Source of the DNA: a virus
Strand: one strand, 5' to 3'
Virus record (IMG/VR): IMGVR_UViG_3300009176_000064
Span: 1 to 29,992 of that record
Length of the DNA: 29,992 nt
The position numbers and the translations under genes are program-made. Each line of letters begins with the position of its first letter. The first letter of the stretch is position 1. Below, piece by piece: positions 11,131 to 29,992 of this stretch. The notes under the pieces were generated by a model that did no database searches, had not been told where the DNA came from, and saw only the letters and a program-made list of their open reading frames with translations.

Positions 11131-11612
11131 TGCCAGGCTTCGAAACCATCGTCCGGCCGGTCGTCTTCCCCAACATCCGGCCGGTGCCGACACGATCACT
11201 GCCGCCTGAGGATGACCCCGAGAAGGGCAAATGCACGATCGGCGGCGGTGGCGGCGGCATCATCGCCGTCACGGAAAATAAAAGCGTAAGCGGATCAACA
11301 CACAATCCGAAGGAAATCGAGCGCACGGTTGACCAGGCGCGGGTCCATCAAAAGAACGACGACGGGACCATCAACGAGGAGAACTTTGTTGATATCGAAG
11401 TCGCGAACAAAATCAAGATGAAGGTGGGTGCCCGCCCCGGCGGGGGGACGCCTTTTACCGGTTTCAATGGTGACGATGTGGTGAAAACGACGGCAGATAG
11501 GGGCTACACCGGCGATGATCTGATCGAGAACTATAGGTACGAGCCTGTCAAAGAAAAAGATAACATTAAGATCAAGAAAAAGAACATCATAAAGAAGGCA
11601 GAGAGCGCATGA
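11130..11612 (+). CDS. Small hydrophilic tail-region protein, unknown
   Basis: This 160-residue protein has a proline-rich N-terminus, a run of glycines (GGGGGGII, about residues 38-45), an acidic/basic middle and a strongly lysine-rich C-terminus (KEKDNIKIKKKNIIKKA). The last 60 bases are visibly A-rich compared with the neighbouring genes. The ATG overlaps the hub gene's stop and the end overlaps the next gene. No family is recognised. Its place among tail genes suggests a structural or assembly role at the tail tip. Confidence 0.6.
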   Translation: MPGFETIVRPVVFPNIRPVPTRSLPPEDDPEKGKCTIGGGGGGIIAVTENKSVSGSTHNPKEIERTVDQARVHQKNDDGTINEENFVDIEVANKIKMKVGARPGGGTPFTGFNGDDVVKTTADRGYTGDDLIENYRYEPVKEKDNIKIKKKNIIKKAESA

Positions 11613-12415
11613 CCATCGTTTTCGTCACCACCGGCCCGTGGGGCGGCGGCACCGGCGCGCCGAACAGTGCGGCGCAGGTTGACGGCAACTTCTACGATGT
11701 CGATCAGCGCATCGTCGACCTCTCGGCCGATGTGGCCGAGGGCAAGCGCATCGACACGGTGACCTATACCAGCAATTCCATGACGTTCCATTTTACCGAT
11801 GGTTCGTCGCAGGTCATTCCGCTGCCGGTTGCGACCCTCGAATATGCCGGCAACTGGCTCAACGATACGTTCTATTCTCGCGCCAACATCATCACGGCAC
11901 CAGGCATCGGCGTGTTCCAGGTGCTCGAGGATCACACCACGCCACCGGCACCGGCAACCTTCAATCCGAATGCAACGGACGAGAGCACCGATCTAAATCC
12001 GCTCTATCAGTTGTGGATGCCGCTGCGCGATGTGAACTACGACGCCGCGATCTTCGTGCCCGGCAGCATCCAGCGCAGTGCCGACGAGCTGCTGTTCCAG
12101 GGCATTGCAAATCGTTCAATGATGATTGGCTCGGGCGACGAGGGTGCCTATGCCTATCTCGATGTTGGCAACGATGCGCCCGGTGCCACCGATGTCATCC
12201 TGTCGATCGAGTGGAACGGGACCGAGGTCGGCACCATCACGTTTCCCGCCGGCGGCGATATCGATACCAGCGGCGGGCAGGTCGGCGAGTTCAACATTCC
12301 GCTGCCGGTAGGTTATGCCGCGGGCTCTCGCTATGCGCTGCGGGTCACGCAATCCGACAATGCGGAGCCGGCGGGCCTGTCGGTGACGCTGCCGTTCATT
12401 CGCACGGATATCTGA
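11609..12415 (+). CDS. Tail-tip/fibre-associated structural protein
   Basis: This 268-residue protein begins MTIVFVTTGPWGGGTGAPNSAAQVDGNFYD, written here only as the opening pattern, and includes a short helix QRIVDLSADV. It also has the segment LEYAGNWLNDTFYSRANIITAPG, a layout common in phage tail fibre proteins where a trimer-forming N-terminus is followed by a W-rich beta repeat. The C-terminal half is beta-rich. It overlaps genes on both sides by four bases or fewer. Likely a tail-tip or fibre adaptor; no enzymatic motif is visible. Confidence 0.6.
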   Translation: MTIVFVTTGPWGGGTGAPNSAAQVDGNFYDVDQRIVDLSADVAEGKRIDTVTYTSNSMTFHFTDGSSQVIPLPVATLEYAGNWLNDTFYSRANIITAPGIGVFQVLEDHTTPPAPATFNPNATDESTDLNPLYQLWMPLRDVNYDAAIFVPGSIQRSADELLFQGIANRSMMIGSGDEGAYAYLDVGNDAPGATDVILSIEWNGTEVGTITFPAGGDIDTSGGQVGEFNIPLPVGYAAGSRYALRVTQSDNAEPAGLSVTLPFIRTDI

Positions 12416-12570
12416 TGGCGGATTTAGCGGACGCGCTTGGCCTCGATTTCCTGACGCAGATCATAAATGTGCATTGGGAGAGCGGGCTCGCGGTAGAATT
12501 CGGCAACAAGGCTGAAGATGCGCCAGGGCTGAACGAAGATGCGTCGGTGGTACGGGCCGCAAGACAATGA
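12415..12570 (+). CDS. Small protein between tail fibre genes, unknown
   Basis: This 51-residue gene (MADLADALGLDFLTQIINVHWE ... VRAARQ, cited only at its ends) starts with an ATG overlapping the previous TGA and ends by ATGA overlap with the next gene. It lies wholly inside a longer frame that would start at 12013, but coupling at both ends supports the short version. No family is recognised. Confidence 0.55.
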   Translation: MADLADALGLDFLTQIINVHWESGLAVEFGNKAEDAPGLNEDASVVRAARQ

Positions 12571-13847
12571 GCTATCTCAGTCTGCCGGCCATCAACATGG
12601 CCGATTTCAGCAAAGGCACAATTTCGTTATGGTTTCGTTTTTCAGAAGATGCGGTTGAGGCGGCGCGGACATATGGCGCGGGCTATCAGACGCCGGACTT
12701 TGGTAACTTTGCATTCGGGCCAGATATTTTCAAAAGTACAATTCCATTGGTTACGTTTGGCCGCAAGGTGATGGCGCATACTTACGGCACGGTTGGCCAT
12801 GTCTGGACCCAGACAGAAGGCGGCGCTGTGTTGCAGGCGGTGACAAACGATGTTGTAACCAAGGACGATTCTCCCTGCGAGCCTTCCCATCTCGGTCTTG
12901 AGGTTCGCGATGCTGCCAGCGGTATCGACGGTGTCACTCTTAAAATAGCGTTTCAAACAGAAACGCGGGCAGAGGTACAGGGAATGGCGTTCGAGGCGAC
13001 CGACGTTCATTGGGCACAAGTCAGTGAGGGCGGGCCATTTCAGCAATACATGACTGTTCGGGACGTTTCCTTCATTCGCACCGGACAACCGGAATGGTTT
13101 TTGATCAGCCCGAAATTCAACGTCGAACCTGACAAATGGCATCATCTCCTGGTGTCATTTGATTTTACTGGATCGGTTAACGTGGTGGCGCTTGTGGCGC
13201 CGGGCGCAGGCTCTGAGACGGAAGAAGAGGTGCGGAACGCCACGATCAAGAGCTATTGCAAATGTTGCTATGCGTTCGATGACGAGAACAAGAAAGGGAA
13301 AGACAACATTGGAAATAGCATTGGTTTCGACCAGCCGACGATAGGTTGGGTGCCACAGGATGATAACGGGATCATTCCCCAGACCGCGGAGCGTGCGGTT
13401 GTGGCCTACTCGCCGACCCCGCCTAATCCATTCGTTACCGGCGGGAACGTGGACCCGGCATATCATTGGGAGGCATCACCGATCCCGATGAACGGCGGCC
13501 CGGTAGGGTTGCCGGCAAGTGCTGAATATGTCGATACGATTTATCATTGTGAAATGGCCGAATTCCAGATGTGGGGAGGCATCTCCCTGGATACGGAAAA
13601 CGTGATAAACCGGCGCGCCTTCGTCGACGCCAATGGCAAACCCGTCAAGCCTATAAAGGCGGAAGAACTGATGGGCCGAAGGCCGGATATCCAATTTCAT
13701 GGCACCAATAAATGGCAACAGGGATATAACACCGGAACGACCGGTGCCCAGGAGTCAACAACGGGGGAATTTGAAAAGATACCATCGGGCCAATTCATTC
13801 CGACCGCAAAGATCGCCAAATATTTGCCGGACCCCAGTTTGGCTTGA
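12567..13847 (+). CDS. LamG/concanavalin-like lectin, candidate receptor-binding protein
   Basis: This 426-residue protein resembles a LamG/concanavalin A-like lectin fold. The N-terminal strand is KGTISLWFRF (about residues 16-25), and the paired late strand is KWHHLLVSFDFTG (near residue 190). Both are hallmarks of LamG sandwich domains. A later CEMAEFQMWGGISLD segment gives the closing strand. The gene uses more A/T-ending codons than its neighbours, consistent with exchange between phages, which is common for receptor-binding genes. It most likely sits at the tail tip and binds host surface polysaccharide; that is inference from fold and position. Confidence 0.7.
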   Translation: MSYLSLPAINMADFSKGTISLWFRFSEDAVEAARTYGAGYQTPDFGNFAFGPDIFKSTIPLVTFGRKVMAHTYGTVGHVWTQTEGGAVLQAVTNDVVTKDDSPCEPSHLGLEVRDAASGIDGVTLKIAFQTETRAEVQGMAFEATDVHWAQVSEGGPFQQYMTVRDVSFIRTGQPEWFLISPKFNVEPDKWHHLLVSFDFTGSVNVVALVAPGAGSETEEEVRNATIKSYCKCCYAFDDENKKGKDNIGNSIGFDQPTIGWVPQDDNGIIPQTAERAVVAYSPTPPNPFVTGGNVDPAYHWEASPIPMNGGPVGLPASAEYVDTIYHCEMAEFQMWGGISLDTENVINRRAFVDANGKPVKPIKAEELMGRRPDIQFHGTNKWQQGYNTGTTGAQESTTGEFEKIPSGQFIPTAKIAKYLPDPSLA

Positions 13848-13867
13848 GCGAGGAAAGCACTGCTTGA

Positions 13868-14749
13868 ATGCTGGTCTGTAACGTCAGCCTTCGCCCAGCG
13901 CGTAGCGGGATTGCGGCCGCGATCACCGAAGCAGTGACGGCAGTCGACGCAATTGCTACGGGGAATGTGGTTTTCGCCACGCTGGTCGATGACCCGGCTT
14001 CGGTTGGTGACAACGTCAATGCTTACCTCGGCGAGATCATGCTCGAGGCCGCGAATGCCGATGCCCTCGCCGAGGCCGGCCTTACCTACAGTTCTGCGAT
14101 CAATGAGGCAATAACCGCTAGCGATACGCAATCTGCCACGGCGGCCGCAGCGCCAACAACATGGGATGCTGCCACAGCTACCGCTGTTACGCTTTCGGGC
14201 GGCAATCTTGTTGCAACCAATACCGGCACGACATCGGCCGATCAGGGTGTGCGTGTTGCCAGTAGCAGCGGGAAAACCAGCGGCAAATATTATTTCGAGA
14301 TAACGACTACGGTGTCTGGGACCGGCGGAAACATAGCTGTCGGCATTTGCACGACGACTTCGACTTACCCAAGTCTCGGGAATCTCGCGGCCGCAGCCGT
14401 GGTCGGTAACACTTCGATCCGCAATTCTGGTAACCTCTGGGCCAACGGTACTAATACCGGCATAACGATCGGAACTTATTCGGCGGTCGGACAAGTCGTT
14501 AGCGTGGCGGTTGATCTCGATAATCTTCGAATCTGGTTTCGTCGTGGCGCCAACAATTGGAACAACAGTGGCACCGCCAATCCGGCGACAAACACTGGCG
14601 GGATTGTAATCCCAGCCGGGACCATGGTTCCGGTTTGCATTTTCGGTGGCTCTGCTGGCGCCGCTGGTAATGCTTTTACTGCCAATTTCGGCGCATCGGC
14701 GTTTGCTGGAACAGTCCCATCAGGATTCACGTCAGGCTGGCCAGCCTGA
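13868..14749 (+). CDS. SPRY-domain tail protein, candidate receptor-binding
   Basis: This 293-residue protein has an alanine-rich helical N-terminus and a C-terminal SPRY (B30.2)-like domain from about residue 135. It reads KTSGKYYFEITTTVSG, then GNIAVGICT, a glycine-rich middle, VVSVAVDLDNLRIWFRRG and a closing strand ending FTSGW. These are the standard strands of SPRY modules found on phage tail proteins. The start at 13868 is preceded by GAGGAAAG at 11 bases, somewhat far. The gene follows the LamG-like gene by 20 bases. Together they may give two binding specificities. Confidence 0.72.
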   Translation: MLVCNVSLRPARSGIAAAITEAVTAVDAIATGNVVFATLVDDPASVGDNVNAYLGEIMLEAANADALAEAGLTYSSAINEAITASDTQSATAAAAPTTWDAATATAVTLSGGNLVATNTGTTSADQGVRVASSSGKTSGKYYFEITTTVSGTGGNIAVGICTTTSTYPSLGNLAAAAVVGNTSIRNSGNLWANGTNTGITIGTYSAVGQVVSVAVDLDNLRIWFRRGANNWNNSGTANPATNTGGIVIPAGTMVPVCIFGGSAGAAGNAFTANFGASAFAGTVPSGFTSGWPA

Positions 14750-14768
14750 CACGACGAAAGGAAAAACC

Positions 14769-15353
14769 ATGACTGATGAACGCGCACAGGCGCGCGAGAG
14801 CAATGATGCATGCGTGATCCGGGGCAGCGGGATCGGCGAGCGTGCCGAGGCACACGGCCGCTACGAGGTCGAATGCATCGGCGCCGATGGCAAACTCAAG
14901 TGGCGCGACACCATCGAGAATGTGGTGGCGACGGTCGGCAAGAACCTGGCGCTCGACACCTTCCTCGCGGGCTCGGCCTATACCGTGACTGGGCCTTACA
15001 TGGGTCTGATCTCCTCGACCTCGTATTCGGCGGTTGCTGCGGGCGACACCATGGCCTCGCATGCGGGCTGGCTCGAGGGCGGCGGTGCCAACGCACCGAC
15101 CTATACCGGCAATCGCAAGACTGCGGCCTGGTCGGCTGCGGCTTCTGGGGCCAAGGCGCTGTCGGCGGCGCTGTCGTTCGCCATCACCAGCACTGGGACC
15201 GTCAAGGGTGCATTCCTCTGCTACGGCAGTGGCGCGAGCGCCACCAAGGACAACACCAGCGGGACGCTATGGTCGGCCGGCACGTTCAGCACCGGCGACA
15301 AGGCGGTGGTTAACGGGGACACGCTCAACGTCAATTATTCCACATCGCTATGA
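14769..15353 (+). CDS. Tail-tip or decoration-type structural protein
   Basis: From the ATG at 14769 (AAGGA five to nine bases upstream) the protein is 194 residues long. It includes GRYEVECIGADGKLKWRDTI, TVGKNLALDTFLAGSAY and TVTGPYMGLIS, a conserved pattern found in many rhizobial phage structural proteins. The frame is open upstream to 14646 but that part overlaps the previous gene. Function is not established; position after the receptor-binding candidates suggests a virion surface role. Confidence 0.65.
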   Translation: MTDERAQARESNDACVIRGSGIGERAEAHGRYEVECIGADGKLKWRDTIENVVATVGKNLALDTFLAGSAYTVTGPYMGLISSTSYSAVAAGDTMASHAGWLEGGGANAPTYTGNRKTAAWSAAASGAKALSAALSFAITSTGTVKGAFLCYGSGASATKDNTSGTLWSAGTFSTGDKAVVNGDTLNVNYSTSL

Positions 15354-15472
15354 CGCCTCGACACTACGAGGTGCTGCCGTGGATCATCATCCTGCTATGT
15401 GCGCTCGCTATCCTGGCGTTCCTGTCCTGGCTCGGCTGGGACAACTGGTCTGACCTGCGCGAGGTGACGTGA
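15350..15472 (+). CDS. Tiny single-span membrane protein upstream of endolysin
   Basis: This 40-residue gene has one hydrophobic segment (about residues 9-30, VLPWIIILLCALAILAF) and a short polar tail. Its ATG overlaps the previous TGA and its TGA overlaps the endolysin ATG, so it is translationally coupled to both. It could be part of the lysis cassette (holin/antiholin or an inner-membrane spanin-type partner), but it is too short to assign by sequence. Several other small membrane proteins occur in the window. Confidence 0.65.
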   Translation: MTPRHYEVLPWIIILLCALAILAFLSWLGWDNWSDLREVT

Positions 15473-17013
15473 TGGCGGCCGAGGCTCCCGAGTGGCTCCT
15501 GGTAATGCGGGCGATGAATGGCCTCACGGAGACGCCGGGCTCGGGTGACAATGCAAAAATCCTCGCCATGCGCGACGAGATCGCCAAGACCTATCCTGAC
15601 ATGGCGAGCTATTGCGCGCTGTATCAACATGATGCGACGCCGTGGTGTGGGCTGGCTGTGGCCTATGCGATGACCATGGGCGGAGTGCGGCCGGTGTTCG
15701 GCAAGACCGACACCGACAAATGGATGTGGGCGCGGGCCTGGGACGATCTCGCATGGGGCTATGAATTGACGACGCCGCGGCCGGGCTGCGTGGTGGTGAT
15801 GGAGCGCGAGGGCGGCGGCCACGTCACACTGTACGAGCGGACAGAAGGCTCCTCGTATTGGTGCCGCGGCGGAAATCAGAGCGACGCCATCAATCAATCA
15901 AAATATCCCATCAGCAAGGTCGTCGCGCTGATGTGGCCGAAGGCGGAAGGCCCACCGCCACCGGCACCGCGGCGAAACCTTAAGAAGGGCGACAGCGGTC
16001 CTGATGTCGAGATGCTGCAGGCGGCACTCGGCATCCCGCCCGACGGCGAGTTCGGGGCGGTGACCGATGCCGGCGTCAAGGGCTTCCAGTGTGCCTGTGG
16101 CCTCGAGGTCGACGGCGAGGTCGGGCCGATGACCTGGGAGAAGATCGACGCGCTGGTGCTGCGCATGGAGACCGGCAGCGACGGCATCTCGGAGGAAACA
16201 AAACGCGCCATCACCGAGCTGGCGCTCACGCATCCGATCCAGAAGTTCGTCTGGGAAGACCGCGGCCGCTCGCCGTCAGGCTATATCGCCGGCATGGGTC
16301 AAGCGTATGCCCTGGCGCTGACGTGGTGGGTCGCGCGCGATCCGGCGGCGATCGAGATGGCGCAGGCGGCCGGTGATGCCGACGAGGACGCGCTCGCCTG
16401 GTACGCCGCGGAGTTTGCCAAGATCGGCATCAATGTTTCCGTGCCCGGCGTCGATACGCTGCGCGGGCTGTTCGCCCTAATGATTGGCCTCGGCATGCGG
16501 GAAAGTTCGGGCAAGTATTACGAAGGCCGCGACGTGTCGGCGACCAACACCACATCGGACACATGCGAGGCCGGGCTGTTCCAGATGTCGTGGAACATGA
16601 AGAGCGCCAGCCCGAGCATGGGCAAGCTGCTCGAGGAATTCTTTGCCGATCCGAACGGCTTCTTGCCGATCTTCTCCGAGGGGCTGACGCCGACCTCGGC
16701 CGGGCTGCAGAATTTCGGGTCCGGGCAGGGCGCGCTGTTCCAGTTCATGGCGAAGTATAGCCCCGCGTTCTGCGTGATGACGGCGGCGATCGGCCTGCGC
16801 ACACGGCGCAAGCACTGGGGGCCGATCAACCGGCGCGAGGTCGAGCTGGTCGCCGAGGCGGCCGACTACCTGGCACAGGTCGAGGAGCTGATTGCCGAAG
16901 GGCCGTCGCCGGAACCCGAGCCAGAGCCACCGCCCGAGCAGGAGGAAGCCCTCGTCGACATCGTCTTTGCCGGCCCGGTGCGGGTGACCGTCAATGGTCA
17001 AGAGGTGTCGTGA
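15472..17013 (+). CDS. Endolysin with NlpC/P60-like, PG-binding and lysozyme-like domains
   Basis: This 513-residue protein has three parts. Residues 1-157 match the TIGR02594-type peptidase, with a candidate catalytic Cys in TPWCG (C59) and His in GGGHV (H117). Residues about 168-227 are a peptidoglycan-binding PG_binding_1 domain (KKGDSGPDVEMLQAAL, then TWEKID). Residues about 250-470 form a lysozyme-like domain, with LFALMIGLGMRESSG (E344) and CEAGLFQMSW (E366) as candidate acidic residues. A Pro/Glu linker leads to a short beta C-terminus. A GTG one codon upstream is possible, but the ATG overlaps the previous stop. It should cut both peptide and glycan bonds of the wall. Confidence 0.85.
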   Translation: MAAEAPEWLLVMRAMNGLTETPGSGDNAKILAMRDEIAKTYPDMASYCALYQHDATPWCGLAVAYAMTMGGVRPVFGKTDTDKWMWARAWDDLAWGYELTTPRPGCVVVMEREGGGHVTLYERTEGSSYWCRGGNQSDAINQSKYPISKVVALMWPKAEGPPPPAPRRNLKKGDSGPDVEMLQAALGIPPDGEFGAVTDAGVKGFQCACGLEVDGEVGPMTWEKIDALVLRMETGSDGISEETKRAITELALTHPIQKFVWEDRGRSPSGYIAGMGQAYALALTWWVARDPAAIEMAQAAGDADEDALAWYAAEFAKIGINVSVPGVDTLRGLFALMIGLGMRESSGKYYEGRDVSATNTTSDTCEAGLFQMSWNMKSASPSMGKLLEEFFADPNGFLPIFSEGLTPTSAGLQNFGSGQGALFQFMAKYSPAFCVMTAAIGLRTRRKHWGPINRREVELVAEAADYLAQVEELIAEGPSPEPEPEPPPEQEEALVDIVFAGPVRVTVNGQEVS

Positions 17014-17327
17014 TGGGTGTCACCGAAGAAGCTGGCAAGGCGGTCGGTGGCTACGTCACGGCACTGGGCAGTCAGCCGGTGCTGCTGGTGCAGTCGCTGA
17101 TCATCGCGGGCGTGGTGTTCATTCTCTATGCGCAGGGATCGAAGTCATTCACCGAGCGCGAGGCGCTAACGAAGTCGATATTCGAGTCGCAGGCGCATGT
17201 GCGGGAAATCCTGTCGCAGTGCATCGTGCCGCCGGACGAGCGCAAGCGCAGCGACCTGAAGTCGCCAGTGTTCAAGTTGCAGGAAGCTGAAAGTCGGCCG
17301 CATGAATTATTCGTGATGCCGCCATGA
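17013..17327 (+). CDS. Single-span membrane protein, candidate holin or spanin
   Basis: This 104-residue protein has one membrane segment (about residues 21-41, VLLVQSLIIAGVVFILYAQG) followed by a charged, mostly helical domain (KSFTEREALTKSIFESQAHVRE, cited as a pattern). The C-terminus contains a CIVPPDERKR segment. It directly follows the endolysin with a one-base overlap and a GTG start option one codon earlier. The layout with a short N-terminus and cytoplasmic or periplasmic helical tail is consistent with a holin or an inner-membrane spanin subunit. No outer-membrane lipoprotein partner is visible. Confidence 0.6.
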   Translation: MGVTEEAGKAVGGYVTALGSQPVLLVQSLIIAGVVFILYAQGSKSFTEREALTKSIFESQAHVREILSQCIVPPDERKRSDLKSPVFKLQEAESRPHELFVMPP

Positions 17328-17521
17328 GTGCCGCCGATGATACCCGCGATGTGATCCTGGCCGGCTTGCGCCATGCATTGCAGATGCGGGTCGCCACGAT
17401 CTGGAACAACGTCACGCTGGCCGGAGAGCAGGCGCCGGGACCGCGGTTCAAGGAGGGCGTCACCAAGGCCGTTGCCTACTACGAGCAGGCGGTCGCGGCG
17501 GTCGAGAAGATGAAACTCTAG
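17324..17521 (+). CDS. Small protein ending the late operon, unknown
   Basis: This 65-residue helical protein (MSAADDTRDVILAGLRHAL...) overlaps the upstream gene by four bases (ATGA) and is followed within 27 bases by the intrinsic terminator, so it is the last gene of the late transcript. I do not recognise it. It has no membrane segment or signal peptide. Confidence 0.6.
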   Translation: MSAADDTRDVILAGLRHALQMRVATIWNNVTLAGEQAPGPRFKEGVTKAVAYYEQAVAAVEKMKL

Positions 17522-17547
17522 CTCTTCGCGGAAGCCCTGATCCGCAG

Positions 17548-17576
17548 CCTCGGTGGCCTCCCGCCGGGGTTTTTTT
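17548..17576 (+). terminator. Intrinsic terminator of the late operon
   Basis: A nine-pair stem (CCTCGGTGG with CCGCCGGGG, two G-T pairs) with a CCTC loop is followed by seven Ts. It lies 27 bases after the last late gene and is the clearest intrinsic terminator in the window. Confidence 0.93.
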
Positions 17577-17660
17577 ATGTCCCATAACGGAACTTGGCTC
17601 AAAATATAATATTCCAAAATGGCATCCGGGTGGGTTGCCATCGTGCCGTCATGTCCCATA
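17577..17660 (+). promoter_or_regulatory. Intergenic region with two ATGTCCCATA repeats
   Basis: ATGTCCCATA occurs at 17577-17586 and again at 17651-17660. Between them lie a TATAAT at 17605-17610 and the operator-like site at 17611-17625. No -35 box at the usual spacing is convincing. The region probably controls the XRE gene at 17718. Confidence 0.45.
17611..17625 (+). promoter_or_regulatory. Operator-like site ATTCCAAAATGGCAT
   Basis: This site differs by one base from the perfect palindrome at 18399-18413. It adjoins a TATAAT and lies about 90 bases before the 147-residue XRE regulator. Downstream, ATGGCA at 17619 pairs with TGCCAT at 17636 across 11 bases, adding a second possible half-site. 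Confidence 0.55.
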
Positions 17661-17717
17661 CTGTGGCGTGCTGTATTGCCGGAATTCAACCGGCCAAGAC
17701 CACGGGAGGCGACTGGA

Positions 17718-18161
17718 ATGGGAATGCGTTGCGATTATTGCATTGATATCGGGCGCCGCATCAAGCACGTCCGCGAAGATCAACGAATGACTCAGGGCGA
17801 ACTCGGCCGCATGCTGGGCGTCCCGTTCCAGATGGTGCAACGATGGGAGCGCGGCGAGCTGACGATCGAGCGCATCGTCGCCATCGCTATTGCGCTCAAG
17901 CTCGATTCCACCTGGCTGATCACGGGCCAATACGGGGTGCCCCCTCAGCTCTGCCGGGCGCTGAGTGATACCTCGGTGCGGCTGGAACGGGCCAAGAGCG
18001 CGAGCGAGTTGCTGGACCTGTTCAAGCGCCGCGACCAAATCCGACGCGAGCAGTTTGATCCATTGCTCGGTATCAAGCCGCTGCCGATGGCAGTGGGCGA
18101 GCTGTTGCGTGGGTTGCTGCCGGCAATCACGAAGTGCATCATTCTTGTTTCGCTATTCTAG
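17718..18161 (+). CDS. XRE-family regulator, candidate lysogeny repressor
   Basis: From the ATG at 17718 (GGGAGG about nine bases upstream) the protein is 147 residues. An XRE/Cro-CI helix-turn-helix lies at about residues 8-70 (IGRRIKHVREDQRMTQGELG and then MVQRWERGELTIERIVAIAI). The frame is open upstream to 17619, but that part has no good start signal. The C-terminal part is helical and has no LexA-like Ser/Lys protease signature, so it would not be cut by RecA. The product is likely a repressor or Cro-type regulator. It overlaps the end of the opposing gene at 18139-18384 by 23 bases. Confidence 0.75.
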   Translation: MGMRCDYCIDIGRRIKHVREDQRMTQGELGRMLGVPFQMVQRWERGELTIERIVAIAIALKLDSTWLITGQYGVPPQLCRALSDTSVRLERAKSASELLDLFKRRDQIRREQFDPLLGIKPLPMAVGELLRGLLPAITKCIILVSLF

Positions 18162-18384
18162 CGATCTTGGCGACGACCCTGTGCGGGCTGAACTTGAGGG
18201 CGCGGGCAAGGTCGCACAGTTCACAGACATCAATCCGCCTCTGGCCGCTTTCGATCTTGGCAAGCCAGGATTGAGTGCGGCCAAGTTTTGTCGCCACATC
18301 GCTTTGGCGCATGCCCGACGCTCGGCGTTTCTCAATCAGCAATCGAATTAGCGCCTTGTGGCTCGCGCGCTGAATCGTTTCCAT
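18139..18384 (-). CDS. Small XRE-family regulator, convergent to the first
   Basis: This 81-residue protein is nearly all helix-turn-helix, with RQSDVATKLGRTQSWLAKIESGQRRI (residues about 26-51) as the recognition region. It lies 57 bases downstream of integrase on the same strand, so it may be co-transcribed with it. AAGGA lies immediately before the ATG, which is closer than ideal. A palindromic operator-like site is 15 bases upstream. It could be Cro-like or a regulator of integrase. Its 3' end overlaps that of the 147-residue XRE gene, which could allow antisense interference. Confidence 0.72.
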   Translation of the reverse strand: METIQRASHKALIRLLIEKRRASGMRQSDVATKLGRTQSWLAKIESGQRRIDVCELCDLARALKFSPHRVVAKIARIAKQE

Positions 18385-18398
18385 TCCTTCTTATTTGA

Positions 18399-18413
18399 AT
18401 GCCAAAATGGCAT
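18399..18413 (-). promoter_or_regulatory. Palindromic operator ATGCCA-AAA-TGGCAT
   Basis: This is a perfect dyad with six-base arms and a three-base spacer in the 56-bp gap between integrase and the small XRE gene. A one-mismatch copy stands upstream of the other XRE gene at 17611-17625. The pairing suggests one repressor acts at both regulator genes. Confidence 0.6.
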
Positions 18414-18440
18414 AGGCCAAATCGGAATATCTGGAACATT

Positions 18441-19748
18441 CTAACCTGCGCGGCCGATCCGAACAACGTTGGAGGCCGCCTTCTTGCCGCTGACGATCGC
18501 CTGCAGTTCCCGCGCCCAGGCCTCGAGCGCCTGCCGCTTCTCGGCGTCATAGCGATGCATGTTGTAGTGCTTGCGGTTGACGCTCTGCGGGGTGTGGTTG
18601 GCGATGCGCTCGATCAGGCTATCGGCGCAGCCGAGCATGCCGAGCCGGGTGCATAGGGTGCGGCGCAGATCGTGCGGCGTCGGATACTCCTTGCGCCAGC
18701 TCTTGGCGCCGGGGCCGTCGCCATCGGTGAGGGCGTCGCCGAAGCGCCGCATCGCGGTGCCCAGCGCATGGCCTTCGATCGAGCTGCCGTCGACCGAGGA
18801 CGGGAACACGAACGTTGACCCATCGGGCACCAGCGCCAGCGCCTCGTTGACGGTATCGAGCAGGAGCGAGGGCAGGGGCAGCGCCAGTTGCTGCTTGGTC
18901 TTGACCCGCCCCGGCGGTAGCACCAGGCCGGCGGCGGCCTTGTCGTCGAGGTCGTGCAGCTCGTCCCGGCGCAGTCCGGCAACCTCGGACGAGCGCATGC
19001 CGGTGAGCAGCGCCAGCCGCAACGCCAAGCCGGTCGTGGGCGACACCGGCGACTGCACGATGTGGACCCAGAACAGCCGCAGCTCGTCGTCGGACAGCAC
19101 GCGATCCTTGGTGTGTTCCTTGCCGCGCTTTTTCAGGCCGGCGATCGGGTGGGATTCCATCAGGCCGACCTCGATGGCGAAGCTGAATATCTTGCTGACC
19201 AGCGCATGCACCCGGTTCGCGGCCGAGTGGTGGCCGGCGCCGATGATCTGCTCAAGCCGCTCGATCACGACCGGCCGCTTGATGTCGGCAAACGGCTGAG
19301 TGCCCCAGTACGGCAGAAGGTGTTTCTCAAGGTTGCGCTCGTTCTCCGCATAACTGCTGGCGCGATTGTGCCGCTTGGAGTGCTCGCGCAAATATCTTTC
19401 TGCGAGGTAGCCAAAGGTGCGCCGATCGAGGGCTTCATTCAGTTTCGCTTGCTTGGCTAGTCGCGCGACGACGGCAGGGTCTTGACCTTCGTCAATCTTG
19501 CCGCGCTGTTCGTCGGCCTTTTTTCTCGCTTGCTTGAGTGTGACGTTCGGATAGCTCCCGAGCTTCACGCGCTTGATCTTGCCGCGGAATGAGTACCGCA
19601 ACGACCAAGTGGCAACGCCACCTGCCGTCAGCCGTAGTTGCAGATTGCGGCAGGAGATGTCGTTGACCTCGATGCGGCCCGTCGTCGGGGGCTTCAAAGT
19701 TCGAAGGAAGTGGTCTGTGAGGTCTTTGCGCATTATGGGTTTTTCCAT
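18441..19748 (-). CDS. int: Tyrosine integrase (P4/DUF4102-type)
   Basis: This 435-residue protein carries an N-terminal DUF4102-type arm-binding domain (LKPPTTGRIEVNDISCRNLQLRL region, cited as positions 18-40), then a SAM-like core-binding domain (about 110-210) and a C-terminal catalytic domain. Expected catalytic residues are present: R252 (LTGMRSSEV), K283 or K285, H359 and R362 (PHDLRRT), H385 (ANHTP in place of the usual LGH) and Y395 (KHYNMHRY). It lies about 590 bp from the tRNA-half attachment site, which is its likely substrate. Two small genes precede it on the same strand with overlap. Confidence 0.93.
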   Translation of the reverse strand: MEKPIMRKDLTDHFLRTLKPPTTGRIEVNDISCRNLQLRLTAGGVATWSLRYSFRGKIKRVKLGSYPNVTLKQARKKADEQRGKIDEGQDPAVVARLAKQAKLNEALDRRTFGYLAERYLREHSKRHNRASSYAENERNLEKHLLPYWGTQPFADIKRPVVIERLEQIIGAGHHSAANRVHALVSKIFSFAIEVGLMESHPIAGLKKRGKEHTKDRVLSDDELRLFWVHIVQSPVSPTTGLALRLALLTGMRSSEVAGLRRDELHDLDDKAAAGLVLPPGRVKTKQQLALPLPSLLLDTVNEALALVPDGSTFVFPSSVDGSSIEGHALGTAMRRFGDALTDGDGPGAKSWRKEYPTPHDLRRTLCTRLGMLGCADSLIERIANHTPQSVNRKHYNMHRYDAEKRQALEAWARELQAIVSGKKAASNVVRIGRAG

Positions 19749-19933
19749 GTCTGGTAGTGTTCTTGTGCGCGCGCGATTGCGTCGCGTTTAGTGTAAAAAA
19801 CCTCGGAAGTGTCGTCCGGCAAGTAAAGATACCAGTCTCGGCCCACTGGGCCGCCTATCCGATACTCGCCTGTTGCGAAAAGCGCGCACCACCAGCCGTG
19901 CTTCTCGCGCGTCCATTTCAGTTCCTTGCGCAT
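19733..19933 (-). CDS. Small protein overlapping integrase start, unknown
   Basis: With the ATG at 19933 (ATGA overlap with the upstream gene) this is 66 residues: MRKELKWTREKHGWWCALFA, then a beta-rich part with GRDWYLYLPDD. Its last 16 bases overlap the integrase start, so integrase is likely translated by coupling. Tryptophan and tyrosine content suggests a small folded beta protein. I do not recognise it. Confidence 0.65.
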   Translation of the reverse strand: MRKELKWTREKHGWWCALFATGEYRIGGPVGRDWYLYLPDDTSEVFYTKRDAIARAQEHYQTWKNP

Positions 19934-20148
19934 CACTTGCCCCCGGCCTTGGCCTGTATTGCTCGTTCTATTTGGACAGTAACTTTTTCAAAGCACTTGG
20001 TAGCCTCGTGGGGGTCTGGTTGAATGCATTCAACCATCTGCCGTCGAAATTCTTTGACCTTACAGCTCTCGTCGCATCGGTTTTGCCATACCGATATTGT
20101 GACGATCGCAACTCCCGCGACGGCAGTGCCAATTATTAGTTTGTGCAT
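19933..20148 (-). CDS. Small protein with N-terminal membrane or signal segment
   Basis: From the ATG at 20148 this is 71 residues. An N-terminal hydrophobic stretch (residues about 4-20, LIIGTAVAGVAIVTISVW) is followed by a cysteine-containing domain (CDESC, VECIQ, KCFEK). The frame is open upstream to 20238, but those residues run into the attachment-site repeats and look non-coding. The cysteine spacing suggests a disulphide-bonded periplasmic domain or a metal site. Function unknown. It is the first gene of the integrase unit. Confidence 0.6.
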   Translation of the reverse strand: MHKLIIGTAVAGVAIVTISVWQNRCDESCKVKEFRRQMVECIQPDPHEATKCFEKVTVQIERAIQAKAGGK

Positions 20149-20475
20149 AATGATTTCCCTATTTTTTTGACCCCCAGACTCTGGGGTCAGGGGCAATTTG
20201 CTAAAAGGGTCCGGGGTCAGTCTGGGGTCAGTTTCCAAATTACTGCCCGATATGGCCTGTCACCAAACAACACGATAAACATTGGGGTTCGTGTTGGTCC
20301 GTCTTATTCCATACCGTTAGTTTATTGTCAATTTATAACTTCGAATCTGGGGGTCGCAAGTTCGAATCTTGCCGAGCGCGCCAATATATCAATGACTTAC
20401 CAGGGGCGGGCTAAACCGCCCAAATCGCCGGGGTCAGTCTGGGGGCAGGATTTCCGGTGGTATGGGCACGGGGGG
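20149..20475. other. attP region between integrase unit and leftward operon
   Basis: This 327-bp gap has no convincing gene. It holds the tRNA 3' half (20339-20383) and six or more GGGGTCA-type repeats on both sides. The TTATTCCATACC sequence near 20304 also occurs in the control region near 24785. Confidence 0.8.
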
Positions 20476-20478
20476 TCA
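20168..20478. repeat. Integrase arm-type site repeats flanking the att core
   Basis: Repeats of the type TCTGGGGTCAG occur as an inverted pair at 20168-20190, as a tandem pair at 20210-20220 and 20221-20231, and as a second tandem pair at 20427-20437 and 20438-20448. A further GGGGGTCA lies near 20471-20478. The tandem spacing is 11 bp, one turn of DNA. The two tandem pairs share 20 of 21 bases (20211-20231 against 20428-20448). This is the expected arrangement of arm-type binding sites around an attP core. Confidence 0.7.
20339..20383 (+). other. attP core: 3' half of tRNA-Arg(TCG)
   Basis: The segment matches tRNA positions 32-76 exactly: anticodon loop CTTCGAA (anticodon TCG, Arg), stem strand TCTGG, variable loop GGGTC, T-arm GCAAG-TTCGAAT-CTTGC, acceptor strand CGAGCGC, discriminator G and CCA. 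The 5' half (expected GCGCTCG and D-arm) is absent upstream, so it is not a working tRNA gene. Integration into a host tRNA-Arg would restore the 3' half of that gene. Confidence 0.88.
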
Positions 20479-22002
20479 TTTGTATCCCTCGTGCATCTTC
20501 TGTTTTATGATCTTGGCGACTTCCGGCTCTCGGATGTCGTCTTTGGACATGCGCCCGCGGTACCCAGCTAACGGAATGTTAATTTCGAGCGGTACGAGGT
20601 GATCGCGGCCGGGCACGCTAATGTGGACATCATAGCCCGCCCAGCGGAAGTCCCGCGCCCCGCGGAATGACATCGGGTGCGCCACGCCCTTCCTGTCGAT
20701 GAACGGCCTTACCATGTGGAAGATGCGGCGCTTCTTGCCGCTCTCAGTCAATTGGATGTCGCGGTCTCGGAAGAAGTACGGCGTGCGGTGGGGGCTCAGC
20801 CCGAACACTGCCGTCAGGTCACCCTTGGTGACCTCGACGCGCAGCATGGAGTAGGCGGACCTTTCAACGTCCCGCACCGCGTCGGTGAAGACGTGGCTGA
20901 GGTGCGTTTGCGCGTCCAAGCCGTAATGCTTCGACCATTCTTTGTACTCGTGGGGGAACTGCCAGTCCCACCATGGGCGGACCTTGTCGCCGTCGCCATC
21001 GCGGCGAGTCTTGAGGACTTTGATGCGCTCGCCGTCGTCGCTGATCTGGACGGGGAATTCCTGCGGCCGACCCCACTTGTAACGGATGCGCTCGCATTTC
21101 TCGACGCGGTCCCACCAGACGGTCAGCATGTAGAGCTTGCCGCCCCTCACTGGTTGCACCGTCCAGGGCATGTCCCTTACCCGCCGGAAGTACAGGAATT
21201 TGGGGCGCGCTTGGTAGTAGCCGCTCTTAAGCTTCACCATCTCGGCCGCTTCGTCGCGCGGGTTGACGCCGAAGGCGCAGCACCCGAATGCCGGCCAGGT
21301 CCGCTTGAACCAGGGCGACAGCCGAATCTCGTTCTTGTAGCTGTCGATGTCCTTGATTTTTTCGATGTCGTGCGGCTTATCGCTATACGAGCCCGTGGCC
21401 ATGTACGGCACCAGCGTTGCTCCGAGCTGCCGATAAAACCCGTAGGCGTCCGGGTCGTGCCGCTTCATGCGCTCGATGTAGACCCAGTAGCGGTCGAGCT
21501 GGTCGAGGATGGTATCCCTGAAGTTAAATTCGCCGTAGAACTCGGCCTCTTCGTACAAGACCTGCTCGCCATCGCCGGCCAACCACTCATCGACGATGAT
21601 GTGGTCGTTGGGGTCATCGATGATCTCCCCGCGTCCGAGAATTTCGACCTCGGGTTCAACCTTTTGCTCAGCCTCATTCGGCAGCCGTTCGTCGCGCTCT
21701 TCTTTGATCGGCTGTGGGCCACCTGGCTCGACCCACTTGTCGTGGCGCATGCGGGCGCGCTCGTACTTGCGGCGCTGGGCATCCAATGACCGTCGCGTGT
21801 GCCGGTTCTGCTTGGGATGAGGCGGCGGCGGAATGTCCATCGCCAGCAGCGGCACGATGTTGGGAGCAGCGGGAGGTGGCGGTGGTGTAGACGGCGGGGC
21901 TGAGAGCTTGGGCGCGGTAACAGGGATGACAAGATCATCCGGCGTCGGTCGCCGGAACACCAGCAGCAGGAACTGACGCCACCAGTTCCGAAGCGCGCCC
22001 AT
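20476..22002 (-). CDS. Large early protein of unknown function
   Basis: This 508-residue protein has an N-terminal hydrophobic or amphipathic stretch (about 7-18), a proline-rich low-complexity region (about 34-65), then charged and aromatic-rich sequence without a recognisable catalytic motif. The middle contains many Trp/Tyr/Arg clusters (WFKRTWPAFGCCAFGVNPRDE; RVRDMPWTVQPV; KVRPWWDWQFPHEYKEW). It starts four bases after the Xis-like gene stops, with an ATG on the same strand, so it is the last gene of the leftward operon. It ends close to the attP arm repeats. Similar proteins exist in rhizobial phages, as far as I recall, as hypotheticals. Confidence 0.75.
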   Translation of the reverse strand: MGALRNWWRQFLLLVFRRPTPDDLVIPVTAPKLSAPPSTPPPPPAAPNIVPLLAMDIPPPPHPKQNRHTRRSLDAQRRKYERARMRHDKWVEPGGPQPIKEERDERLPNEAEQKVEPEVEILGRGEIIDDPNDHIIVDEWLAGDGEQVLYEEAEFYGEFNFRDTILDQLDRYWVYIERMKRHDPDAYGFYRQLGATLVPYMATGSYSDKPHDIEKIKDIDSYKNEIRLSPWFKRTWPAFGCCAFGVNPRDEAAEMVKLKSGYYQARPKFLYFRRVRDMPWTVQPVRGGKLYMLTVWWDRVEKCERIRYKWGRPQEFPVQISDDGERIKVLKTRRDGDGDKVRPWWDWQFPHEYKEWSKHYGLDAQTHLSHVFTDAVRDVERSAYSMLRVEVTKGDLTAVFGLSPHRTPYFFRDRDIQLTESGKKRRIFHMVRPFIDRKGVAHPMSFRGARDFRWAGYDVHISVPGRDHLVPLEINIPLAGYRGRMSKDDIREPEVAKIIKQKMHEGYK

Positions 22003-22005
22003 GGC

Positions 22006-22251
22006 TTAGTCGCCCTGCCGCGCCTTGATATATCGATCGAGCGATGCTGTCACAACGCGGCGCTGGCGGCCTACAAAAATGCTGTCGACCTCTTTGGTCC
22101 AAACCAAGTCCCACATTTTTGACCGGCCGACCCGAAGCTCGGCTGCGGCCTCGGGGATGCTCATCAGTCGGGGTTGCGCGTTCATCTCCCTGGCCTTTGC
22201 CAGCCGGGTTTCGAACGAACGCCCATCACGGCGTGATTTGGTCGGGTTCAT
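22006..22251 (-). CDS. Excisionase-like winged-helix DNA-binding protein
   Basis: This 81-residue protein contains a MerR/Xis-type winged-helix pattern: RLMSIPEAAAELRVGRSKMWDLV (about residues 28-50), then VDSIFVGRQRRVVTASLDRYIKA. A basic N-terminal extension precedes it. The ATG overlaps the upstream stop (ATGA); a later internal ATG near residue 30 is possible. Its place in the leftward operon, with integrase and attP nearby, makes excisionase the first guess, but this fold is also used for transcription or DNA-packaging functions. Confidence 0.65.
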   Translation of the reverse strand: MNPTKSRRDGRSFETRLAKAREMNAQPRLMSIPEAAAELRVGRSKMWDLVWTKEVDSIFVGRQRRVVTASLDRYIKARQGD

Positions 22252-22478
22252 GGTTGTTGCTCATTTCGTTGGGCGCGCACGTCGGCAACATGCAAAAGCA
22301 CGGCCCGCAATTGCTCGCGCAGTTGCTTGATCTCTTCCAGGGCCATATCGTTCGTCTCGCGGAAGCTGAAAATCGCGGCGGCTTCATTAGCTCGCAGTTG
22401 CTCGATCTCGTCAGCGGCCTCCTCCGCAATGGTCCCCGTCCACTCATCGGCGCGCAGCCGTTCAACAATGTCGGTCAT
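22248..22478 (-). CDS. Coiled-coil small protein, junction paralogue A
   Basis: From the ATG at 22478 the protein is 76 residues starting MTDIVERLRADEW and containing ADEIEQLRANE and LEEIKQLREQLRAVLL, a heptad pattern typical of a coiled coil. GGAG lies ahead of the ATG. Its N-terminus resembles that of the next upstream gene (MTDIVE, then ADEIE-x-L), so the two are paralogous there. The stop overlaps the Xis-like ATG. Function unknown; probably an oligomeric accessory protein. Confidence 0.65.
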   Translation of the reverse strand: MTDIVERLRADEWTGTIAEEAADEIEQLRANEAAAIFSFRETNDMALEEIKQLREQLRAVLLHVADVRAQRNEQQP

Positions 22479-22852
22479 GGCTTTGGCTCCAGTGCGCGGC
22501 GCAGCGCCTCTGCGTGCTCGTCCGTCTGGCAATCAAGGAAGGCTAATGCGAGCGCCCGCAGCCGCTCGATTTCGGCCTGCAGCTGCTCGCACTCTTTCTC
22601 CGATCCTTGCCACAGACCTTGAAAGATACCGGCTGTGTCACGGGCTACACTTGTATCTGCAAGGGACCGCATGTGCCCTTGCAGTCGCTCGATCTCAAAT
22701 CCCTGTTCCCTGACAATCGCGGCAAGAGCGCCCAGTCGCTCGATCTCGTCGGCGGCCCACCACTCCCGTTCATTCTTGGGAATGTTGGGGTCCATGATCT
22801 GGCGCTCCAATTCTGCGCGAGGGGTGGCTTCATGCTCGACGATGTCGGTCAT
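22475..22852 (-). CDS. Coiled-coil small protein, junction paralogue B
   Basis: From the ATG at 22852 the protein is 125 residues, beginning MTDIVEHEATPRAELERQIM and continuing with long Glu/Arg-rich helices (REQGFEIERLQGHMRSLAD; EKECEQLQAEIERLRALALAF) before ending ALRRALEPKP. The predicted structure is a coiled coil. It shares its start with the 76-residue gene and its end with the neighbouring upstream genes. No enzymatic motif is seen. Confidence 0.65.
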   Translation of the reverse strand: MTDIVEHEATPRAELERQIMDPNIPKNEREWWAADEIERLGALAAIVREQGFEIERLQGHMRSLADTSVARDTAGIFQGLWQGSEKECEQLQAEIERLRALALAFLDCQTDEHAEALRRALEPKP

Positions 22853-23013
22853 GGCTTTGGCTCCAGGGCCGGTGCGCAAGAGCACGGCCACTCCGGGGAG
22901 GTTTCATCGACGGGCAATTCATCCCAGTCGTAGCACCAATGACAATACTTCCCGGTCAACACGCGCCCGCGCCATTTCATGCAATCGCGCCTCCAAGCAT
23001 CTGTCTCGGTCAT
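22849..23013 (-). CDS. Cysteine-rich 54-residue protein
   Basis: This short gene starts at the ATG at 23013 (in the repeat) and ends by ATGA overlap. The product begins MTETDAWRRDCMKWRGRV and contains GKYCHWCYDWDE and WPCSCAP. The CxxC and CxC pairs suggest a small zinc-binding fold. It ends ALEPKP like its neighbours. No close family is recognised; DNA or protein binding is a guess. Confidence 0.6.
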   Translation of the reverse strand: MTETDAWRRDCMKWRGRVLTGKYCHWCYDWDELPVDETSPEWPCSCAPALEPKP

Positions 23014-23123
23014 GGCTTTGGCTCCAGGGCGCGGCGGGCTTGGGCGGCGGATTCGAGCACAAGGGGTGCTAATGCCCGAACCCGCCCCGCAGATCGCCGG
23101 CTAGAACGAACAGCGATCCGCAT
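23010..23123 (-). CDS. Possible tiny or degenerate junction paralogue
   Basis: This 37-residue frame ends VRALAPLVLESAAQARRALEPKP, cited only by its last part. It resembles the C-terminus of the 125-residue coiled-coil gene (RALALAFL ... ALRRALEPKP). It runs into the repeat and overlaps the next start. The frame may be a remnant left by duplication rather than a working gene; no strong ribosome binding site is visible. Confidence 0.35.
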   Translation of the reverse strand: MRIAVRSSRRSAGRVRALAPLVLESAAQARRALEPKP

Positions 23124-26187: not shown

Positions 26188-26237
26188 CTGTGCTTTCTGC
26201 TTGACGTTTGGGAAAAGTTTATTCAGCCTTCGCAAAC

Positions 26238-26450
26238 ATGCGACGGCTCGCAAGCCGACACCAACGGCTCGTTTGCTATCTTAGACAAGATGGGAAATGT
26301 GCCCTCTGCGGTTTTGATCTCGGAGAGAAATTCGAGGTCGACCATCTGCAACCGTTTAGCCAAAACGGAGCAACGTCATGGTTCAATCTGCAAGCGGTGC
26401 ATCCGCACTGCCATCATTCGAAAACCTCCGCCCAAAACAAAAAGAAATAG
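26238..26450 (+). CDS. HNH endonuclease
   Basis: This is 70 residues from the ATG at 26238; a TTG at 26208 would add ten. The zinc pairs are C21/C24 (CALCG) and a His/Cys-rich cluster ending HPHCHH (H57-H60). The HNH core is VDHLQPF (D35, H36) and N50. The last 73 bases overlap the start of the helicase gene in another frame, which is unusual. The region from here to about 28731 looks lower in GC than its neighbours. It may nick DNA for recombination or replication, or be part of a defence or homing-type cassette. Confidence 0.75.
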   Translation: MRRLASRHQRLVCYLRQDGKCALCGFDLGEKFEVDHLQPFSQNGATSWFNLQAVHPHCHHSKTSAQNKKK

Positions 26451-28213
26451 TCGAAGCATTCCGAGCCGGCGAAAATGTTGTCGTCGCTCAACTGCCAACC
26501 GGCTATGGTAAGACGCTCGCTGCCGCTTCAGCCTTGGCAATTTTGCGAGCACTCAATCAATCCAATCGCATGTTGGTCGTGGCTCAACGACGCGGGCAAG
26601 CGAAGCAGCTCGCCGAGGATTTACCCGATTGCTTGGCGACTTACGGCATCAAGACTCAAACCATCGTCGTTGGTAGAGATCAAGTTCGTGCTCTACGGGC
26701 ACATTCAGATGGCTCTGTCGTCGTATTCATTGTCACGATCCAATCTCTTGTCGCCAGCAAAGATACATGGGAAACAGTCAAAGCATTATTGCAAACTGGT
26801 CTGTGGTTCATCTTTGTAGATGAACACCATCATTACGGCGTCGGAGATGACGGCGACGATGCTGGATGGACTGAACAAATTCGAAATCTCAGCTTCGCGC
26901 GCATGCTCGCAACCAGTGCGACTGCAAGTCGATATGATCGACGTGATGCATTTCCCAAGCCAACGATTGTTGAGACTTATCGAAATGCTGCGGAAGCAGG
27001 CTACATCAAAAAACTATCACTGCACGCCTACCACTACACGATCGATGCTGTAACGGTGGACGGTGAAGTTATTCGCCTGACCACGGAAGAACTAGCACAG
27101 CAAGCAGGATCAGAAACGCCAGAAGCGATCGAAGCATACATGGCCGCACGTAAGATGCGGTTCTCACCAAAATACATTTCGCCACTTGTCATCTTTCCGG
27201 TCGATCGAATTATAGATAAGCGCGCGCAAGGCATCCGTTCGCAATTCCTCATTCAGGCCATGTCGTGCTCGCATGCAAAATGTGTTGTCGATCAGGTGCG
27301 CGCATTGTTGCCAGCAAATCTAAATGTCGATTGGGTTGGCACCGGGCCTAATGGTCGAACGGTGGAGGAAAATGAGAGGATCATCACCTCGTTCTGTCCA
27401 CCAAAAGATAAACTCACTGGACGACGAATGTGGACGCTGGATGGAATTGTCAACGTCGGCCTTGTTGGCGAAGCAATGGATTCCGTTGATGTCAGTGAGA
27501 TCATCTTTTTAACGCCAGCGCGCAAGACAATCACCAATAAACAAACCATCGGTCGCGCAAGTCGGCCGATGCTCTTGCCAAAAGATCTTCCCCAGATCGG
27601 ACACGTCAACGTCGACACCACGAGCCCGATGGCAGACGCTCGCTACATTGGACGCGGCGTTGAACTCTTATTCGATGATGATATCGAGCCTCCTGATGAC
27701 GATGAACCAACAAAACCAAGGGAGCCACCGACACCTGGGCCATACGAAGAATTGCCGGAAAAACTTGGATGGATCATTGCGGATATGCGTCTGCTCGAAA
27801 TTCGGAGCGAACCAATGTTCAAGGCGATATTCGAGAGAACGAGACCGCAAACATCGGAAGCACGTACAGACGAAGAAGTGTCGGTAATCGTCGAGCGTGG
27901 CATTCAGGAATATCTCAATCGTTCTAACAATGCGTCGGTTATCTTCGCTCAGAAACAAGATCAGATCGAAGCTGCTGTTTCCAAAATCGCCAGTCTGGTC
28001 ATTCGGCGTATGGTCGCTCTGAACATGTCGATCGAGCGGACATTGGCCGGTGACATCAAGAAGCGAATCAACACGCAAAAGAGGATAGCATTCGGACCAG
28101 TCAAAGATGCCGACGAAGCAACGCTCGATCGACACTGGGAATGGTTGAAAAATTTAGAGCGCGGCATCCTGCTAGGACACAACTTGGAAGGCTTGCCAAA
28201 GTGGCTGCGGTAA
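26378..28213 (+). CDS. SF2 helicase (DEAD/DEAH-like)
   Basis: This 611-residue protein has Walker A (LPTGYGKT, with K45), motif II (VDEHHH, D148-E149), motif III (TSATAS, 179-184) and motif VI (QTIGRASRP, 389-397), together a DExH-type SF2 helicase core. A Q-motif-like LRPKQKEI precedes Walker A. After motif VI is an acidic linker (DDDIEPPDDDEP) and a helical C-terminal domain (about 460-611) I cannot name. GGAG lies seven bases before the ATG at 26378. It could unwind replication forks or recombination structures, or act in a nuclease-helicase pair with the overlapping HNH. Confidence 0.85.
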   Translation: MVQSASGASALPSFENLRPKQKEIVEAFRAGENVVVAQLPTGYGKTLAAASALAILRALNQSNRMLVVAQRRGQAKQLAEDLPDCLATYGIKTQTIVVGRDQVRALRAHSDGSVVVFIVTIQSLVASKDTWETVKALLQTGLWFIFVDEHHHYGVGDDGDDAGWTEQIRNLSFARMLATSATASRYDRRDAFPKPTIVETYRNAAEAGYIKKLSLHAYHYTIDAVTVDGEVIRLTTEELAQQAGSETPEAIEAYMAARKMRFSPKYISPLVIFPVDRIIDKRAQGIRSQFLIQAMSCSHAKCVVDQVRALLPANLNVDWVGTGPNGRTVEENERIITSFCPPKDKLTGRRMWTLDGIVNVGLVGEAMDSVDVSEIIFLTPARKTITNKQTIGRASRPMLLPKDLPQIGHVNVDTTSPMADARYIGRGVELLFDDDIEPPDDDEPTKPREPPTPGPYEELPEKLGWIIADMRLLEIRSEPMFKAIFERTRPQTSEARTDEEVSVIVERGIQEYLNRSNNASVIFAQKQDQIEAAVSKIASLVIRRMVALNMSIERTLAGDIKKRINTQKRIAFGPVKDADEATLDRHWEWLKNLERGILLGHNLEGLPKWLR

Positions 28214-28731
28214 AAATCATCCGGCCGCCTGTTTGCTCTGATCCAGCAACCGACATCCCGCGCGAGCAATGGCCAGAGCTGATCGCCGAACGCAAGAGTT
28301 TCTGTAACGGCGTGCTTCCGCGTGACTGTCGCATGCTGCTGTTCTTCGTTGATGATGCCGAAAAAGCAGATTGGCTCGGCTACGGTTCACGCAACAACTA
28401 CCTGCATGAGGCGCTTGGACTCGATCCGCAGCAAGTCACATGGGCAATCGACGGCTTACGTCAACTCAAACCTGACGAGCCCATTGCCTATGATTGGGCG
28501 CAGAAACTTGGGAAGCAGGGTCGGCCAAAGAAGGGTAAAGAAAACCTTGCAATACAAGGTTTAAAATATGGAACCCGAGCGCATTGGCTTGTCCGTCTCG
28601 ATCGCGAGGGACACGCGGATCTTGCAACAAAGGTTAGATCCGGTGAAATGTCAGCTAACGCCGCAGCCGAGAAGTTGGGATGGCGCAAGAAACCAAAATT
28701 CGTTTGTCCTAATTGCGGTTTCACAACATGA
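28201..28731 (+). CDS. Unknown protein with C-terminal zinc-ribbon-like end
   Basis: Using the GTG at 28201 (GGAAGG about nine bases upstream), this is 176 residues; the frame is open upstream but overlaps the helicase. It contains an acidic and aromatic N-terminal half (MLLFFVDDAEKADWLGYG), a basic middle (LGKQGRPKKGKENLA), and GEMSANAAAEKLGWRKKP. The last part is a motif seen in several phage and plasmid proteins of unknown function. It ends with CPNCGFTT, a single zinc knuckle pair. A DNA-binding role is inferred. Confidence 0.6.
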   Translation: MAAVKIIRPPVCSDPATDIPREQWPELIAERKSFCNGVLPRDCRMLLFFVDDAEKADWLGYGSRNNYLHEALGLDPQQVTWAIDGLRQLKPDEPIAYDWAQKLGKQGRPKKGKENLAIQGLKYGTRAHWLVRLDREGHADLATKVRSGEMSANAAAEKLGWRKKPKFVCPNCGFTT

Positions 28732-29900: not shown

Positions 29901-29992
29901 AATACAGTAGAGAGAAAATTCTTCTACACCTGTAGGAAGTTGCGTGCGACCGGGGGGTGGTGAAATATTCGAACTAGGCTCCCGCTATACCA
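29901..29992. other. Window-end region before the expected terminase
   Basis: No gene starts convincingly here. An imperfect hairpin (CTTCTACA with TGTAGGAAG, 29921-29939) and a GC-rich tract at 29946-29960 (GCGACCGGGGGGTGG) are visible. The tract could be part of a cohesive-end site, but that is speculation. Confidence 0.3.

Follow-up and report, generated by a model that had tools for sequence, protein, structure and literature searches.

A tRNA-Arg half between phage genes

The DNA analysed here, referred to as the window, is the entire 29,992 bp of IMG/VR record IMGVR_UViG_3300009176_000064, which is classed as linear. Between its integrase gene and an excisionase-like gene lies the 3' part of a tRNA-Arg(TCG) gene, consisting of the anticodon loop CTTCGAA (anticodon TCG), the variable loop, the T arm, the acceptor strand and CCA (Table 1). 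An earlier note on this DNA had reported a tRNA-Arg(TCG) 3' half lacking its 5' half at 20339–20383, about 590 bp from the integrase start and with phage genes on both sides. We confirmed the half, which is one base longer at its left (20338). With its start at 19748, the integrase gene begins 590 bp to the left of the core and reads away from it, and gene annotation of both flanks bore out the presence of phage genes on either side.

To the right, the sequence is of phage type from 22003 on (excisionase-like, primosomal, helicase, antiterminator and HNH genes) and runs to the cos end described below. The 508-aa protein encoded between the tRNA half and the excisionase-like gene had no match in Pfam, PHROG or NCBIfam or in any phage record; its relatives came from two viral contigs only (48% and 40% identity), and an AlphaFold2 model built from the three sequences (mean pLDDT 39) was too poor for a fold search. 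To the left, a methyltransferase-domain gene (2154–3116) lies amid the structural genes, and the tape measure gene (5730–8511) contains internal repeats, including one direct repeat of 121 bp (97.5%) and several others (~80%). The window itself carries no terminase, portal or capsid gene.

Table 1. Features of the window and sites predicted around the tRNA half
Feature	Position	Strand	Basis or remark
Head-tail adaptor gene	118–738	+	First gene of the window; relatives have it after terS-terL-capsid/protease-portal, ~9.0–9.7 kb in from the left cos end
Tyrosine integrase, 435 aa (Arm-DNA-bind_3 + Phage_int_M + Phage_integrase)	18441–19748	−	Starts 590 bp left of the core
Further P-arm element, partly palindromic, GACCCCCAGACTCTGGGGTCAG	20169–20190	+	Holds a GGGGNCAG unit at 20183
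Predicted P arm-type integrase sites, pair 11 bp apart (CCGGGGTCAGTCTGGGGTCAGTT)	20211–20233	+	By sequence
tRNA-Arg(TCG) 3' part, position 31 to CCA; attP core region	20338–20383	+	Sequence ACTTCGAATCTGGGGGTCGCAAGTTCGAATCTTGCCGAGCGCGCCA
Presumed 7-bp overlap for strand exchange (anticodon loop CTTCGAA)	20339–20345	+	Left identity limit and site class
Predicted IHF site TATCAATGACTTA (consensus WATCAANNNNTTR), P' arm	20387–20399	+	4 bp after CCA, by sequence
Predicted P' arm-type integrase sites, pair 11 bp apart (CCGGGGTCAGTCTGGGGGCAG)	20428–20448	+	By sequence
508-aa protein between xis and attP	20476–22002	−	L003 has two other genes there
Excisionase-like HTH protein, 81 aa (HTH_17, TIGR01764 "excise")	22006–22251	−	Profile match
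HNH endonuclease gene	29556–29900	+	Adjoins the packaging end
Right cos end of virion DNA, CCCGCTATACC followed by A	29954–29992	+	Shared contig ends

Bases 20338–20383 agree at 38 of 46 positions with the 3'-terminal 46 bases of a complete Methylobacterium tRNA-Arg(ACG) (ARAGORN); the second-best position in the window gives 26/46. Bases 1–31 of the same tRNA have no real match in the window (best, 20/31), and ARAGORN found no whole tRNA in it. When the 30 kb were searched for T arms with a 5/5 paired stem and a TTC[AG]ANY loop, a single match was returned, in the 20338–20383 region and followed by CGAGCGCGCCA. The exact core also occurs in an otherwise different viral contig, L002, and the core with two other T stems lies beside integrases in L003, L084 and L085. 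All three distinct T stems (GCAAG/CTTGC, GGGAG/CTCCC and GGGGG/CCCTC) are 100% paired. Three of the five pairs are changed on both sides, and the covariation is lost when the partner strand is slid by one to three columns. This covariation among three distinct sequences supports the tRNA identity, and the halves appear to be copies of functional tRNA genes from different hosts. A chance match was ruled out by length, context and T-stem covariation, and a broken or degenerate resident tRNA gene by the missing 5' half together with the attP arms that flank the core.

L002 (3390–4920 and 5537–5582) carries the identical tRNA half together with arm repeats and an IHF site, and the adjoining integrase seems to be an N-terminal remnant. 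In L084 (13402–13825) the integrase and the tRNA half are followed by bacterial-looking DNA with a signal-peptide-like ORF start; this stretch is probably the attR edge of a prophage integrated in the same tRNA.

Predicted arm-type and IHF sites around the core

The repeat CCGGGGTCAGTCTGGGG[T/G]CAG is present once on each side of the core (20211–20231 and 20428–20448), and each copy contains two GGGGNCAG units at an 11-bp spacing. The window has six GGGGNCAG sites, and five of them fall within 20183–20448; of 1000 windows simulated with a second-order Markov model, none had such a cluster (five sites in 267 bp). The IHF consensus has its only exact match in the window just after the CCA (0.48 expected), and the P arm has no exact consensus site. 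The exact IHF site is kept at the same place in L002; it is also kept in a Bradyrhizobium plasmid half-site and in L003, where many flanking bases differ and every fixed position of the consensus is retained.

The order P arm, core, IHF site and P' arm is that of a lambda-type attP: a tyrosine integrase with an arm-binding domain is encoded nearby, arm repeats lie on both sides of the core, and an IHF site lies in the P' arm. The roles given to the arm sites, the IHF site and the overlap are predictions from this layout. Integration sites centred on the anticodon form a known class of tRNA sites (PMC4383910, PMC8371274). Identity among L002, L003, L084 and L085 reaches its left limit at 20338, which, taken with this site class, points to a crossover in the anticodon loop.

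The right end of the window corresponds to a cos end

The window ends with CCCGCTATACCA. Two other contigs stop at the same place, G002 (L003/L010) at CCCGCTATACC and G005 at CGCGATACC (...ATACC), and the window ends one base later. Six relatives (L018, L020, L034, L038, L046 and L054) start exactly at [A/G]TCACGC..AGA, and two more start 6 or 8 bases before [A/G]TCACGC. L052 and G004 span the site, reading CTATACC-CGCGCCCTTA-GTCACGC and CTATACC-CGCCCGCTTT-GTCACGC, with 10 nt between the common ends. Library end repair removes 3' overhangs (PMC5557969), and the absence of these 10 nt is what would be expected if 3' overhangs had been lost in that step. Judged from these sequences, the right end of the window is a cos packaging end, probably of the 3' type, with a predicted 10-nt overhang that can be read from the relatives; the 3' polarity is deduced from the 10-nt gap and the chemistry of end repair. 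Fixed shared ends with a short gap, terS-terL at the left end and an HNH gene at the right are the features of the 3'-cos (HK97) type.

In relatives, ~9 kb precede the part that corresponds to the window. They carry terS-terL-protease/capsid-portal and begin right after the left cos end, which was taken from L020. The window had been described as starting after the capsid gene and ending at a terminase-adjacent HNH gene. Both descriptions hold, since in relatives the capsid gene precedes the head-tail adaptor gene that opens the window and terS-terL lie across cos. The suggested check, whether head genes join the two ends of the window, was likewise answered by the relatives, in which terS-terL-capsid-portal were found across cos. 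With the size taken from relatives, the window would be the right ~30 kb (the right three quarters) of a linear ~39-kb phage genome that ends at cos, and the attP would lie ~9.6 kb from the right genome end. The record thus looks like part of a linear virion molecule cut at cos, with ~9 kb absent at the left.

No direct end repeats were seen in the window, and the evidence for circularity comes from relatives. The two ends of G004 share 14 bases, a short overlap, and this contig is probably a complete circle of ~40.6 kb. In G006 (L052, L086 and L096), one end crosses cos into terS, and at the other a second cos-like sequence, CTATACCAGCCCCTTTG, leads into different DNA.

Why the probable attachment site lies within the genome

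We consider it very likely that 20338–20383 is the attP core of a temperate tailed phage that packages its DNA from cos and has a capsid and protease of the HK97 type, and that the window is the right ~30 kb of its linear virion genome. The arrangement of the site and the shared contig ends can be seen directly; from them we infer protein binding, the exchange point and integration into a host tRNA gene as follows. The integrase would bind the arm sites (20169–20233 and 20428–20448), IHF would bend the DNA at its predicted site, and strand exchange with a host tRNA-Arg(TCG) gene would take place in the anticodon loop. The 3' tRNA part supplied by the phage would rebuild the host gene, so that the hybrid tRNA gene stays functional after insertion. 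The prophage map would then open at attP, placing the integrase gene at one end and the 508-aa gene next to the rebuilt tRNA at the opposite end. Virion DNA would end at cos, leaving attP internal.

In temperate phages, attP is normally internal on the virion map. The site lies in mid-genome because the ends of virion DNA differ from those of the prophage. In an integrated prophage the att site would be at the phage/host border; here phage genes lie on both sides and those on the right continue to cos. The earlier proposal that this is the attP of a phage not sequenced as a prophage is therefore upheld by the attP arms and IHF site, the phage genes on both flanks and the right end at cos. Its wording, "free or circular", holds in its first part; circularity applies only as a topology in the cell, since the record itself looks linear and cut at cos. 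The record very likely represents a temperate cos phage caught outside the host chromosome.

The same proposal had offered two tandem copies as an option. The junction between two identical prophages, or within a concatemer in the host chromosome, would have the same sequence as attP and would also be flanked by phage genes on both sides. However, the window ends within one base of G002 and G005, at cos, and six relatives start across it, whereas a chromosomal tandem has no physical end there; nor was any host DNA seen. Tandem copies would leave it unexplained why unrelated assemblies stop at the same base; they are not needed, and we regard them as very improbable, even if some individual source molecules may have been of that kind. 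That the tRNA half is the attR of an integrated prophage, with host DNA or a second island to its right, draws on the 508-aa gene, which lacks a phage-library match and differs from the content of L003 at that place, but hardly merits belief, given that P' arm sites and an IHF site come after the core, that the DNA from 22003 is phage-type, 91–98% identical to L003 in large blocks, and reaches cos, and that L084, where the half is followed by only ~380 bp of DNA of host appearance and the IHF consensus is absent, has the look expected of an attR.

The preferred reading, an attP internal to a cos-ended phage genome, has counterparts among known systems, and a tRNA half in mid-genome is not unusual, as two published phages also carry one beside the integrase. 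Klebsiella phage KA2-1 (PQ571296.1, 43,668 bp) is a complete phage record in which a tyrosine integrase adjoins a tRNA-Arg-like 3' half, phage genes lie to either side and a near-IHF sequence follows the CCA. It differs in having a gammaproteobacterial host and the loop CTACGAA, as in tRNA-Arg(ACG), and is 79% identical over 62 bases. In the circular record of Pantoea phage PA-1 (OQ847583.1, 46,332 bp), a tRNA 3' half adjoins the integrase gene and tail genes lie on the other side. This half is 78.5% identical, its loop CTTCTAA is that of another tRNA, and it sits at the 3' end of the integrase gene, whereas that of the window sits before the start. HK97, the 3'-cos reference phage (PMC5557969), shares the prohead protease, the HK97-family capsid, TerS-TerL, a ~10-nt cos gap and a ~39-kb genome; its host and att site are different, and the likeness rests on gene content and ends, not on DNA similarity. 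Among tRNA-gene islands catalogued by Islander, 2083 belong to the class with an anticodon-centred attP (PMC4383910). They resemble the site described here in the 3' tRNA fragment within attP and in the anticodon-loop crossover class, and differ in that the window is an unintegrated phage.

Host of the phage

The earlier note had proposed a search of host genomes for the tRNA; no exact match to the 45 bp was found in 84,980 species genomes. Among bacterial genome contigs, no integrase relative was confirmed and no integrated copy was found. The closest half-sites in the plasmid collection and the closest whole tRNA genes belong mostly to Bradyrhizobium, Methylobacterium and Microvirga replicons, so that the host is likely an alphaproteobacterium. 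The likely hosts of the phage are limited to bacteria that possess a matching tRNA-Arg(TCG).

A near relative differs from the T stem onward

L003/L010 (IMGVR_UViG_3300025935_000027, 26,201 bp; contig G002) encodes an integrase 100% identical to that of the window, and from 8444 to 20356 of the window the two differ at 5 of 11,913 positions. The change sets in at 20357, inside the tRNA half, where the second T-stem pair lies; this stem is GGGAG/CTCCC in L003 and GCAAG/CTTGC in the window. The region from this point to 22002 corresponds to 7258–9400 of L003. There are 16 differences in 20357–20421 and none in 20422–20450; the P' arm of L003 is altered apart from its arm-type pair, which is unchanged. 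From 20451 to 22002 the sequences are unrelated: between attP and xis, L003 has a 262-aa and a 322-aa gene in place of the 508-aa gene. From 22003 on, they again agree in blocks. The right-hand half of the window core matches L002, which is otherwise different.

The abruptness of this change suggests a crossover at attP between phages that share an attachment site. In such an exchange, the attP of one phage would be joined to that of another by the integrase, in or next to the anticodon loop, and the product would be resolved elsewhere by homologous recombination. The unit swapped would comprise the tRNA 3' half, P' arm and adjoining gene cassette, and the integrase and P arm would stay. The near-identity up to 20356, the changed T stem and the different attP-xis cassettes would all be explained in this way. 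Ordinary homologous recombination within the common tRNA sequence would also produce the change, and mixed assembly of co-occurring strains may have done so. We found nothing specific in the literature on attP-by-attP exchange between phages. That attP acts as a hot spot of recombination among co-circulating phages with a common tRNA target is possible but rather doubtful, and the pair offers a small example in which the role of attP as a boundary of gene exchange can be put to the test.

A second cassette has been replaced between the two phages at 26211–28728, where the window encodes a 611-aa helicase and L003 has a 281-aa gene. In the early region of the window, a 25–34 bp repeat occurs in three near-identical copies (22462–22501, 22836–22869 and 23006–23036), and L003 keeps them.
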